Both the position numbers and the translations under genes were made by a program. A DNA stretch of 64,000 bases from Sulfurimonas sp. (GTDB taxonomy: Bacteria; Campylobacterota; Campylobacteria; Campylobacterales; Sulfurimonadaceae): positions 62,001 to 126,000 of the forward strand of contig NZ_JAPHUF010000007.1 in NCBI RefSeq assembly GCF_026196735.1. Reading direction: 5' to 3'. Numbering within the stretch: position 1 is the first letter of the stretch; every line of letters starts with the position of its first letter. This document shows positions 44,132 to 48,644 of this stretch, piece after piece. The notes below the pieces were generated by a model. It saw only the letters and a list, made by a program, of their open reading frames with translations, did not search any database and had not been told where the DNA came from.

Positions 44132-44185
44132 TTAACACTCTATTAACAAAAAATTAACACCTAGTTTATATAAAACTCATATACT
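44132..44185 (+). promoter_or_regulatory. Three-box operator and -10 of the DUF302 gene
   Basis: TTAACA boxes at 44132, 44143 and 44154 are spaced exactly 11 bp apart. The last box ends 20 bp before the -10 TATACT (44180-44185), so the boxes occupy the -35 region and upstream, as PhoB/OmpR activators do. The same layout lies upstream of the porin gene. The ATG is 101 nt past the last box. Confidence 0.75.
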
Positions 44186-44260
44186 TATAACAATAAGTTT
44201 CTTCCCCAAGAGATTTAACATTAAGACCCTTAAATGAGGTCAATTTAAAGGATGTGTCAA

Positions 44261-44743
44261 ATGAAAAAAATTCTACTAGCGTGTATCTTAGCTGTTTCTG
44301 TGTGGGCAGCACCAGATACTAATGTATATACGGTTTCTTATAAAGCTGATATGGATACAGTTGAAAAAAATATACTTTCTCACTTTAAATCAGTGAAGCT
44401 TGTTGTTACTTATAAGTTGGATATTCTTGAAGAGTTTAAACATAAAGGTCTAGACAAAAAGTTTGGTGCTGAGTTTAATAAGAATAAGCTTACTAGTGTA
44501 AGAACTATGATTATTTGTAACGGTAAATTTGGAAACATGATAATGAATACTGACCCTAGTATGATGGCTTATTGTCCAGTTCGTCTTACACTTGTTGAAA
44601 AAGATGGTAAAACTCAGGTTTTATTTGTTCGTCCAAGTTCAGCTCCAAAATCTTCAAAAGCTTACGGGGCTCTAGTTAAATTAGAGCAAAAAGTCGTAGG
44701 TGCGATTGAAGCTGCAAATGAAATGGAAGAAAAAGTAAAATAG
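44261..44743 (+). CDS. Exported DUF302-domain protein
   Basis: A signal peptide (about 1-16, cleaved near VWA-APD) precedes a ~140-residue DUF302 domain. Its hallmark is the segment ICNGKFGNMIMNTDPSMMAYCPVRLTLVEKDG, which contains two Cys (written here only as a landmark from about residue 90 to 121). DUF302 proteins occur in the periplasm of many sulfur and iron oxidisers; their function is unknown. ATG 44252 is possible but AAAGGA spacing favours 44261, and only this start equals the 101-nt operator distance seen at the porin. Confidence 0.8.
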   Translation: MKKILLACILAVSVWAAPDTNVYTVSYKADMDTVEKNILSHFKSVKLVVTYKLDILEEFKHKGLDKKFGAEFNKNKLTSVRTMIICNGKFGNMIMNTDPSMMAYCPVRLTLVEKDGKTQVLFVRPSSAPKSSKAYGALVKLEQKVVGAIEAANEMEEKVK

Positions 44744-44748
44744 TCTCA

Positions 44749-44777
44749 CAGAGCTTTCGCATCAGCCGAAAGCTCTG
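44749..44777 (+). terminator. Hairpin after the DUF302 gene
   Basis: A perfect 11-bp stem (CAGAGCTTTCG/CGAAAGCTCTG) with a 7-nt loop starts 6 bp after the stop. The T-run comes 25 bp later, so termination may be imperfect. Confidence 0.6.
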
Positions 44778-45168
44778 AACATATGAATCCTCAATCAAAC
44801 CTTTTTTAAACCTCTTAAACCCATCAACTAAGCAATTATACACTATCGTAATTTATCTGTAAATCAATCGTTAAACCGCATATTACATGTACATGATCAT
44901 AAGCTTCTATAATCAATTAAACAGCATCAATTAACAGTGTGTGAAGTATCTTGTTAAGAGGTTACTCTACAACAGATAGGCTCTTGTATGCTATAAATAG
45001 ATTATGTTAAGTAGATGAAAGTCTTCGAAGGTTTAGAGCAATACAGGTTGCTGAGAATGACAACCTGTATTTAAGTATAAGACAGTTTAGGAGATATATT
45101 ATACTTTTTAGATCTAGGCCAGAACCTGGCCAAGATATTTAACATCGTAGGAGAATGTTAATTTTAGA
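44778..45168. other. 391-bp gene-free structured region between the DUF302 and porin genes
   Basis: No convincing ORF on either strand. It contains a perfect 11-bp inverted repeat AATACAGGTTG/CAACCTGTATT (45040-45050 and 45061-45071) and a 6-bp hairpin GGCCAG-AAC-CTGGCC (45117-45131) that may terminate the porin transcript on the minus strand. A -10-like CTATAAAT near 44990 faces the plus-strand hairpin. The arrangement would suit a small regulatory RNA, but no known RNA family is recognised. Confidence 0.4.
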
Positions 45169-46584
45169 TTAGAATGTGTATGAAGCAATCAAACGATAAT
45201 GATTTTGTCTTGCACCGTCTGTTGATGCACCTGTAGTACTATTATACTCACTAACGCGTCTAGCATTAAAAACTTTAAACATCCACTCTTTAGATGGCTT
45301 ATATACTAAAACAGTGTCTATTTCGTAAGCATCATTTCCTGCTGCTACATTTGTAGGAGATAAATCACGACTACTTTGTTCAGTTTTTGACTTACCATAA
45401 TCAGCATAGTTAACCATTAGCTTAAGACCCTTCATGATAACATAATGTGCACCAATTTTATATGCATCTACATCTTCACGGTATGCATTACGAGAGAAGA
45501 TTGAGCTTGTGTACGCAGGATCTGCACCCCATGCATTAAAGTATTGACCTTCTGTGCCATTGTCTTTACTGCCAGATGAGTTAAATGCAGCAAAAACACC
45601 CCATTTTTTAGTACCAAGTGCTGCTTTAGCACCCATCATATTAAAGTCTATATCACCGGCAAGCGAATCACCAGTATCTTTTTGCATTAGATATTGAGCA
45701 CTTAGGTTAACAGCCATTCCTTTTGCTACCGGGATTTTATATTTTAATTCTGTGTAGAAGTCATTTGCAATATCATATGCGTGATAAGCCCAAAAATCAG
45801 CTTGTAGGTTTTTAATGCCAGTATATGTAAGACCAAGTACCGAGCGACCATCACTATCAGAAAAACCAGCTGCTTCACTCATGCTGTAAAATTCAGCTTG
45901 TTCAACGAGTGCTGCGTCTGCACCGCTATAAAATGGATCATTTTTTGGATCATTGTATAGTCTGGTAGCAACACCGGCTGTTCCGGTTCTCTCACCGATC
46001 ATACCCCAGTCAGCCATTGCACGAGAACCAAAAGACATCTGTGCCATATGTCCTGCAGTCACTTTAAGACCGTCAATTATATCTGTATCTAACATATATG
46101 CTTCATAAAAATTCGGCATTAGAGATGTTTGAATAACTGTCAGTGGAGTATCAATTGTTTGGCGACCAATTCTAGCATGAAAATAATCATTGGTATAGTC
46201 AAGATAAGCCTCACCCATTAAAGATTTTGTTTTACCGTCACGGTCAACAACCATACCGTAAGCACCCTTGTCCCAATCACCACCGGCAGCTGGTTTTTTC
46301 TTTACATCCCAGTTAGTTAAGCCGGCATCACCATTGACATACATACCAACACCGACTTTAAGTCCATCTGTAAAAACTTCAGGAGTCTCATATTTTAACT
46401 TTACAAGATAACCAGAACCGTTACTTGGAGCATAACCATTTTTTTCATCATCTATAACTGTCATTGCTTTAAGCTGTAAGTCTAAGTTTCCGCCTCTGAC
46501 ACCGTCAATAGTAACATCTGCTGCTTGAGCCATAGTAGAACTTACTAATGCTGCTGCAATCGATAGCTTTATTGCTTTTTTCAT
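45169..46584 (-). CDS. OprD/Campylobacter MOMP-like outer-membrane porin
   Basis: A signal peptide (about 1-21, cleaved after AQA) precedes a beta-barrel of about 450 residues with alternating-pattern strands. It ends in SYTF, the C-terminal Phe required by the BAM machinery. LDYTNDYFHARIGRQTIDTPL is typical of OprD-like epsilon porins (segment about 128-148). The substrate is unknown; OprD-type porins pass small organic or inorganic anions and peptides. Its promoter carries the three TTAACA boxes shared with the DUF302 gene, and the adjacent two-component genes read the same way. Confidence 0.88.
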   Translation of the reverse strand: MKKAIKLSIAAALVSSTMAQAADVTIDGVRGGNLDLQLKAMTVIDDEKNGYAPSNGSGYLVKLKYETPEVFTDGLKVGVGMYVNGDAGLTNWDVKKKPAAGGDWDKGAYGMVVDRDGKTKSLMGEAYLDYTNDYFHARIGRQTIDTPLTVIQTSLMPNFYEAYMLDTDIIDGLKVTAGHMAQMSFGSRAMADWGMIGERTGTAGVATRLYNDPKNDPFYSGADAALVEQAEFYSMSEAAGFSDSDGRSVLGLTYTGIKNLQADFWAYHAYDIANDFYTELKYKIPVAKGMAVNLSAQYLMQKDTGDSLAGDIDFNMMGAKAALGTKKWGVFAAFNSSGSKDNGTEGQYFNAWGADPAYTSSIFSRNAYREDVDAYKIGAHYVIMKGLKLMVNYADYGKSKTEQSSRDLSPTNVAAGNDAYEIDTVLVYKPSKEWMFKVFNARRVSEYNSTTGASTDGARQNHYRLIASYTF

Positions 46585-46659
46585 TCTTCACCCTTTTTTT
46601 ATTTGTCTGCAGTCTAAATAACATCTTTAAAAAGAGTATTAATTAAACTTCATATTTGT

Positions 46660-46713
46660 AGTATAAGTAAATAATATAAATCTGATGTTAATTTTTTGTT
46701 AATGGAGTGTTAA
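46660..46713 (-). promoter_or_regulatory. Three-box operator and -10 of the porin gene
   Basis: On the minus strand, TTAACA boxes end at 46708, 46697 and 46686, again exactly 11 bp apart. The -10 TATACT (46665-46660) follows after 20 bp, and the porin ATG is 101 nt past the last box. Over 28 bases the operator differs from the DUF302 one at a single position. Confidence 0.75.
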
Positions 46714-46726
46714 CAAGATAGTTTAA

Positions 46727-47935
46727 TTAAAGATGAATAATAAAAGAATTTATTCCATTTTCATATTTGTACGAAAGTGAAAAATCATGTTTTTCTAAGA
46801 TATAGTAAACAATATACAGCCCTAATCCAAAACTATCTTCCATATTCATATCACATTTTGTAAATGGCTGAATACAATAGTCTAAATCATGCTCCATTGC
46901 ATCGCCTTTACTACAAAAAGATAAGTTATCACCATCAAGTTCAAGATAAATATTAGAGTCAGTTGAGTACTTAATCCCGTTATCAATTAGATTTTTAAAT
47001 ACAATGCTCATTAAATCAAAATCTGCATTAATAGTTCTATTGGAAAGATTATGTTTAATAGATTGAGGTTCTAAAAATAGTAAATCTGTTGCATTGTCGA
47101 GTATATCGATGAGATGGTAATTTTTTTTGTTAATTTGACAGTCACATGCTGTTATGTTTTCTATCTGTAAAAACTCTCTAGTTAGTAGATTAAGGCGAAT
47201 AAAAATATTTGTCAATATCTCTTTAGTTCGAGACGCTTCTAAAAATTCCAAAGAGAGTTGCCCCTTTGTTATAGGTGTTTTTAACTCATGTGTAATATTT
47301 CTTAAAAATATTGTTCTTGAAGTCATCATCTCTTTAATTTTTCGAACAGCCTTGTCAAACTCGTTTGAAACTTCAGCAATCTCGTCTTTTCCGTTTGAGC
47401 TAAGAGATAAGTTCATTTCTCCCTCTCCAAAACGGCGAATCTGTATTTGAAGATGCTTTAATGGATAGATACTAATGGCAATTGAGATAAAAAGAGCAAA
47501 CTGAACTATAACAAATGCTCCATATAGCCACCACATGTAGTATACATTTATAGGTTTAGTATTCATGTCTTTTAGAAGCATTGAACCGGTTTTTTCCGGA
47601 GTTAGCATATATCTGTAACCATCTTTTTCATAAAGATTAAAATATAACATTCCGCAAGATATAGAGTCTATCTCTTCGTTTTTGATTATATTTTCTTTTT
47701 CATTGTCGACTATTTTTATATGTTTTGATTTGAGATTTTGAAAAAACTTCTCATCTGTGTCCATACCTACATGTCTCTGCATAACGAATCTCGCTACTTT
47801 ATGGTAATGAGCTTTAAGTTTTTCATTTACAGATAAAAATTCATAATCATACATGAATTTAAAGAGTATTGTAATAATTGCAAATGCTATAAGAAATAAT
47901 ACACCAATCCTTAGTAGTATGGAGTGGCGGTTCAT
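46727..47935 (-). CDS. ArsS-like sensor histidine kinase
   Basis: A 402-residue transmembrane kinase. Helix 1 is at about 8-27, a ~105-residue periplasmic sensor domain (about 30-135) follows, then helix 2 (136-158), a HAMP-like region, the H-box with phospho-acceptor H216 in NITHELKTPITKG, and a catalytic domain with N-box NLIDNGIKYS and GLGLYIVYYILEKH. It belongs to the ArsS-type kinases of Campylobacterota, whose best-known member senses acid in Helicobacter. It overlaps the regulator gene by 4 bp. Confidence 0.88.
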   Translation of the reverse strand: MNRHSILLRIGVLFLIAFAIITILFKFMYDYEFLSVNEKLKAHYHKVARFVMQRHVGMDTDEKFFQNLKSKHIKIVDNEKENIIKNEEIDSISCGMLYFNLYEKDGYRYMLTPEKTGSMLLKDMNTKPINVYYMWWLYGAFVIVQFALFISIAISIYPLKHLQIQIRRFGEGEMNLSLSSNGKDEIAEVSNEFDKAVRKIKEMMTSRTIFLRNITHELKTPITKGQLSLEFLEASRTKEILTNIFIRLNLLTREFLQIENITACDCQINKKNYHLIDILDNATDLLFLEPQSIKHNLSNRTINADFDLMSIVFKNLIDNGIKYSTDSNIYLELDGDNLSFCSKGDAMEHDLDYCIQPFTKCDMNMEDSFGLGLYIVYYILEKHDFSLSYKYENGINSFIIHL

Positions 47936-48618
47936 GCCATCATCCTGTAGCCTACACCGCGGATGGATTCAATATATATAGGAGAACGAGGATTGTCTCC
48001 GAGTTTGGAGCGAATACGACTTATGATAACATCAATACTGCGTTCATCACTTTCCCAGCTTAGCCCTTCAACTCCATCAAGGATTGTTCCTCGACTCAGT
48101 ACCATTCCTCTTTGCTTTAAAAAAAGAGATAGTATGCCGTATTCTGCAACTGTTAACTCCAGCAAAGTACCTTTGTGGGCAATAAGCATTTTTGCTTCAT
48201 CAATACTAAAATCTCCATAGCTTTCTTCAGATGCAGAAGATGAAGAGTTTTTTTTCCGTCTAAGCATCGCGTGTATACGGGCTACAAGCTCGCGAGGGTC
48301 ATAAGGTTTAGGCAAATAATCATCTGCACCTTTTTCCAGACCTAAGACTTTATCGCTCACCTGGTCTCTTGCTGAGGATATAATAATTGGAGTGTCAAAT
48401 GCATTGGAAATTTTTTCACAGAGGAACAGACCATCCATTTTAGGCAGGGTTAAATCAAGTACAATAATGTCAAAATGTTTTTTTTCAAGATGTGCCAGTA
48501 CTGTGGTAGGGTCGGAGTTTACTTCAACATCAATGTTGCTGTTGGTTAGGTAATCAGACAACAATTCAGCCAGTACAGGATCGTCCTCAATCATTAATAG
48601 TTTTATATTGTTTTGCAT
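47932..48618 (-). CDS. OmpR-family response regulator (ArsR-like)
   Basis: A 228-residue regulator: receiver domain with IEDD, phospho-acceptor D55 in VLDLTLP, S/T and K (LPKPYDP), then an OmpR/PhoB winged helix ending in RSIDVIISRIRSKLG and ESIRGVGYRMM. A GTG start at 48624 is possible, but AGGAG 5 nt before ATG 48618 decides it. It is very likely the regulator that binds the 11-bp-phased TTAACA boxes at the porin and DUF302 promoters, since OmpR-family proteins bind tandem repeats with that period. Confidence 0.93.
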   Translation of the reverse strand: MQNNIKLLMIEDDPVLAELLSDYLTNSNIDVEVNSDPTTVLAHLEKKHFDIIVLDLTLPKMDGLFLCEKISNAFDTPIIISSARDQVSDKVLGLEKGADDYLPKPYDPRELVARIHAMLRRKKNSSSSASEESYGDFSIDEAKMLIAHKGTLLELTVAEYGILSLFLKQRGMVLSRGTILDGVEGLSWESDERSIDVIISRIRSKLGDNPRSPIYIESIRGVGYRMMA

Positions 48619-48644
48619 TACCACTCCTACTTAGTGGCGTTATA

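Follow-up and report, generated by a model that had tools for sequence, protein, structure and literature searches.

The Bacillus subtilis PhoP box is made of TTAACA-like repeats. The PHO box of PhoB is composed of tandem 11-nt direct repeat units to which the regulator binds head-to-tail over the -35 region (PMC4415409), while the PmrA (BasR) box of enterobacteria is a YTTAAK direct repeat whose upstream half lies at -35 (PMC10927774, PMC4660055). In Sulfurospirillum the OmpR-family system PceP/PceS (TCS2) uses CTATA repeats with 6-nt spacing and an 11-bp period over the -35 region, to which binding was shown by gel shift (PMC7755780). No clear consensus site has been described for the ArsR regulator of H. 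pylori (PMC11162790).

The locus analysed here lies in a 64,000-nt stretch of a Sulfurimonas sp. genome, termed the window below, and carries tandem operators of a known kind, the OmpR-type exemplified by PhoB, PmrA and PceP. Like ArsRS of H. pylori (PMC11162790, PMC2736386), the window system pairs an ArsS-family kinase (NF038389) with an OmpR-type regulator, and the OprD porin gene of the window has its counterpart in the outer-membrane protein genes found among the ArsRS targets; unlike that of H. pylori ArsR, the window-type site is explicit. PceP/PceS comes from the same phylum and has in common with the window system direct repeats of 11-bp period over -35 and a small regulon around the system, but its half-site is CTATW (CTATW-N17-CTATW), its kinase is of another type and its targets serve organohalide respiration. 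The TTAA core of the tandem half-sites is shared with the PmrA box, whose half-sites, bound head-to-tail, are two against four in the window and belong to lipid A modification genes. The PHO box likewise has tandem direct repeats with 11-nt units over -35; however, the Escherichia coli half-site is CTGTCAT, unlike the TTAACA of the window, and there are no phosphate genes at the window locus.

Operators and genes in the window

The features of the locus, with their strand, are the following.

44132..44170 (+): DUF302 four-box operator, TTAACA at 44132, 44143 and 44154, TTTATA at 44165, 11-bp period
44180..44185 (+): -10 element of the DUF302 promoter, TATACT, 9 bp 3' of box 4
44261..44743 (+): DUF302 protein, predicted exported, start MKKILL (a longer ORF begins at 44252)
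45169..46584 (-): OprD-family outer-membrane porin (PF03573, 47.7 bits against a cut-off of 25)
46660..46665 (-): -10 element of the porin promoter, TATACT, 9 bp 3' of box 4
46675..46713 (-): porin four-box operator, three TTAACA and TTTATA, 11-bp period
46727..47935 (-): ArsS-family sensor histidine kinase (NF038389, 386.7 bits against a cut-off of 250)
47932..48624 (-): OmpR-type response regulator, overlapping the kinase start; likely start at 48618

The array TTAACA-N5-TTAACA-N5-TTAACA occurs exactly at 44132-44159 (+), 5' of the DUF302 gene, and at 46713-46686 (-), 5' of the porin gene, where the operator begins 14 bp past the kinase stop codon. The two arrays are identical at 27 of 28 bp and the distance from box 3 to TATACT is 20 bp at both promoters. 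The triplets, their 11-bp spacing, the single-base difference and the 20-bp distance had been described in an earlier, sequence-only reading of the window and were all re-found. That reading recognized the three boxes, which are real, and missed a fourth, in-phase box between box 3 and the -10 element. This box is TTTATA (TTYATA in relatives) at 44165-44170 (+) and 46680-46675 (-), and is separated from the -10 by 9 bp in both cases. The boxes of the two operators are thereby positioned at about -60, -49, -38 and -27, and a good -35 at 16-18 bp from TATACT was found in neither window promoter. The equal leaders of 101 nt from box 3 to the ATG (44261 and 46584), also described before, exist in the window, but their length is not conserved (~90–108 nt in relatives with a readable start) and their equality is considered a coincidence rather than a designed feature. 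The DUF302 mRNA can be drawn with a 5'-terminal stem-loop (44194-44217, +); most relatives keep it, two of its pairs being altered in both partners, and its folding z-score of -1.5 is weak evidence. Between the DUF302 and porin genes there is a strong promoter-like match (11/12) at 44863-44835 (-), directed antisense into DUF302.

The DUF302 protein is recognized by PF03625 and its predicted fold matches the DUF302 structures 1q9u and 1j3m; the clear matches of this fold search were DUF302-type structures only and no function was gained from them. The regulator has Response_reg and Trans_reg_C domains (93.3 and 74.1 bits, above the cut-offs). The pair falls below cut-off both for the PhoB/PhoR models (PhoB 154.7 of 296.2 bits; PhoR 44.2 of 334.2) and for the PmrA/PmrB models (PmrA 136.6 of 330 bits; PmrB 62.5 of 314). 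A homologue search gave five kinase matches in the window genome, one of them of a type widespread in the genus.

Conservation of the operator and a paralogous system

The sample used for comparison comprised 135 genomes of the genus Sulfurimonas, with kinase orthologues (49–74% identity) in 10 genomes other than that of the window. The loci of these relatives have arrays 5' of the porin gene and 5' of a DUF302 or multihaem cytochrome gene, the cytochrome taking the place of DUF302 in G009, G046 and G127. The aligned DUF302 and porin sites read TTAACA-N5-TTAACA-N5-TTAACA-N5-TTYATA-N9-TATACT, the exceptions being the porin genes of G009 and G046, whose sites depart from it 3' of box 3. Four boxes and the fixed distance to the -10 are kept across 20 sites, the boxes and the -10 being rich in information and the flanks and leaders poor. 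It is because the aligned relatives keep the in-phase TTYATA that the operator is defined by four boxes and not by three.

A scoring matrix trained without the window genome gives 61.5 and 60.7 to the two window sites, the next best match in the window scoring 7.7. Shuffled windows do not exceed 12.6, nor other tested sites in the genome 11.7, which supports the small regulon predicted from the window alone. The window contains six three-box matches with up to three mismatches, two of them perfect, while dinucleotide shuffles average 0.48; the two window sites are the only perfect triple-TTAACA matches in the 2.19-Mb genome. A site at C13:70165, one mismatch away and 5' of a NosL gene, is a weak candidate for a third target, having neither the fourth box nor the -10 spacing. 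Among the 135 genomes, 36 three-box matches with at most one mismatch were counted, against eight with the pattern reversed. Fifteen of the triple matches are perfect, and every one of these lies at the cassette or at one of its deletion scars. The objection that the motif might occur at many unrelated promoters, foreseen when the operators were first described, therefore fails inside the genus. TTAA-like words are common in the window genome, but the idea of chance repeats in A+T-rich DNA is refuted by shuffles, reversed-pattern controls and conservation, which leaves it a negligible probability. The near-identity of the two operators (27/28 bases) in the window genome might also reflect recent copying or gene conversion with no shared regulation. 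Elsewhere, however, the spacers of the two operators differ while the boxes stay, and the flanks are alike only at chance level, making this origin highly improbable.

A second ArsS-family system with the same layout is found on contig C9 of the window genome (L111:4254-6695), where a four-box TTAA operator lies 5' of a gene for an LTXXQ (Spy/CpxP-like) protein, a regulator and an ArsS-family kinase. Its boxes TTAATA, TTAAAC and TTAAAA differ from the TTAACA of the window sites. The C9 kinase, as well as that of G292, passes the ArsS-family cut-off like the window kinase. When the pattern is relaxed to TTAA-N7-TTAA-N7-TTAA-N7-TTNA-N11-TATAMT, it is matched exactly at three places in the genome: at C9 and at the two sites of the window. 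Across the genus there are 30 exact matches (reversed control 0). Of these, 15 fall at the cassette or one of its scars, 13 lie 5' of an LTXXQ-regulator-kinase operon and two are elsewhere, so that 28 of the 30 are at ArsS-family genes or scars. Note that the pattern was relaxed after the C9, G133 and G292 sites had been seen; 13 of the 15 non-cassette genus matches are for this reason out of sample, of which 11 fit. The paralogous operon with the same layout is present in the window genome and 12 others. As a tentative generalization, which we consider possible though far from even odds, four in-phase TTAA half-sites with a 9-bp gap to the -10 may constitute a general operator of the ArsRS family in Campylobacterota, in which paralogues would discriminate by the two bases that follow TTAA and of which H. 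pylori ArsR would use a degenerate form.

Outside the genus, TTAACA tandems are also found at TonB-receptor and NosL genes. Three boxes alone are consequently not specific, and the tandems cannot be held to mark the window-type system there. Tandems of up to four or more TTAACA boxes were observed in other families of the order, 5' of large outer-membrane genes (L159:6841, L160:3158, L158:7581), the L159 gene coding for a TonB-dependent receptor; another regulator with a similar half-site probably acts at these sites. Outside the genus, G292 and G138 have the relaxed layout at their LTXXQ operons, and it recurs at genes of eptA type, the remaining matches being without such neighbour genes. 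In two genomes (L224, L226 (1501)) an eptA-type phosphoethanolamine transferase gene is directly 3' of the kinase gene with a TTAA tetrad between them, an arrangement that recalls the PmrA box.

The layout shared with C9 suggests that two regulators may bind similar sites, and TTAACA-like tandems are seemingly used by other regulators in other families. Both points would suit control of the two window promoters by a different OmpR-family regulator, for example the C9 paralogue. Against it, the box sequences differ, as does the recognition-helix region, which is conserved in orthologues of the window regulator and different in the C9 paralogue, and the TTAACA operators are present, placed and lost along with the window-type system. 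Such control is accordingly quite improbable, and the adjacent pair is retained as the candidate regulator.

Inheritance, movement and loss of the cassette

A kinase orthologue of at least ~49% identity is present in 11 genomes of the genus, and in 10 of them operator, porin and kinase/regulator pair are found together. In the eleventh, G127, the boxes are degenerate with two mismatches. The cassette is found in several chromosomal neighbourhoods, which indicates that its parts travel together. In G019 the operator is followed by the DUF302, regulator and kinase genes in this order; in G073 DUF302 and regulator follow it, after which the contig ends. This placement leads one to expect autoregulation in G019 and probably also in G073; in the window genome it was rejected, the matrix scan giving no site 5' of the regulator gene. 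In the G019 locus (L104:5347-7643) the kinase has lost its C-terminal part and is separated from the porin by a transposase-associated gene. The porin of G126 (L100:8474-9737) is split into two overlapping ORFs, by a frameshift or an assembly error.

Loss follows the same pattern. The single-contig genome G008 (L151:7286, L151:9275-9400) keeps DUF302 and porin, but kinase and regulator are gone and both operators have decayed: neither gene retains box 1, the porin site has also lost box 3 and the DUF302 site its -10. This decay without the system is seen in one genome. In G021, G052 and G104 the operator remains while the cassette genes are gone, leaving orphan operators at the deletion sites (L092:7887, L097:8901, L098:8575). 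At the G104 scar (L098) the first DUF302 codons are joined directly to a sequence similar to the beginning of the regulator gene, in antisense orientation.

The co-occurrence in 10 of 11 genomes, the scars, the decay in G008 and the gene order of G019 support the adjacent ArsRS-like pair, named as regulator in the sequence-only reading, as the one that probably acts on these promoters. That interpretation was largely right; it had overlooked the mobility of the cassette and the paralogous TTAA-box operon. Repeats and pair being kept, moved and lost together, they are regarded as a real genetic switch of ordinary type.

A link to nitrous oxide respiration was considered, the cassette being often beside nos genes. 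Neither G026 nor the window genome has a nosZ match, so such a link is not obligatory. The window genome keeps on contig C13 (L112:6166-12363) a cluster of NosL, FtsX-type permease, ABC, Crp-type regulator and multihaem cytochrome genes, and nosZ was not found in it despite this retained cluster.

Proposed mode of action

The two sites are, with good confidence, the operators of the adjacent ArsS-family system, whose phosphorylated regulator would bind as two dimers and activate the porin and DUF302 genes. The 11-bp period places the four half-sites on one face of the helix, and the phosphorylated OmpR-type regulator most likely occupies them in line as two head-to-tail dimers. Since the box at -38 takes the place of a -35, the bound regulator probably substitutes for this element and would hold RNA polymerase on an otherwise weak promoter, in the manner of PhoB and PmrA. 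Helical-turn-phased repeats over -35 had earlier been proposed to be OmpR/PhoB-type sites; by analogy with PmrA and PhoB (PMC4660055) and PceP (PMC7755780), the placement fits activation of this type.

The same boxes at -38 and -27 might instead serve repression by the adjacent regulator, their occupancy blocking RNA polymerase until a signal relieves it. A protein bound at box 4, between -35 and -10, is in a position to block the polymerase, and H. pylori ArsR represses its own operon and some targets (PMC9449129). Yet neither promoter has a good -35, as is expected of an activator-dependent promoter, and four-box sites over -35 fit activation of the PhoB/PmrA/PceP type; repression is thus judged unlikely. 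Under activation, the periplasmic domain of the kinase would read the signal, resulting in joint induction of the OprD porin and the periplasmic DUF302 protein. The predicted periplasmic domain has invariant H43 and H45 (H-Y-H), M52 and C94, absent from the C9 paralogue. These invariant residues make a metal or redox cue plausible, and our guess is that the kinase responds to a metal or to a redox/pH cue.

Judging from the open-access literature searched, the explicit operator consensus for the ArsRS family and the DUF302-porin regulon seem to be new. For a system of the ArsS family they provide a base-level operator and a candidate regulon of two genes. A natural experiment on operator maintenance is offered by the deletion scars together with the genome that lacks the system and has decayed operators. 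The association of an uncharacterised periplasmic DUF302 protein with a specific porin and a specific sensor gives a handle on DUF302 function.
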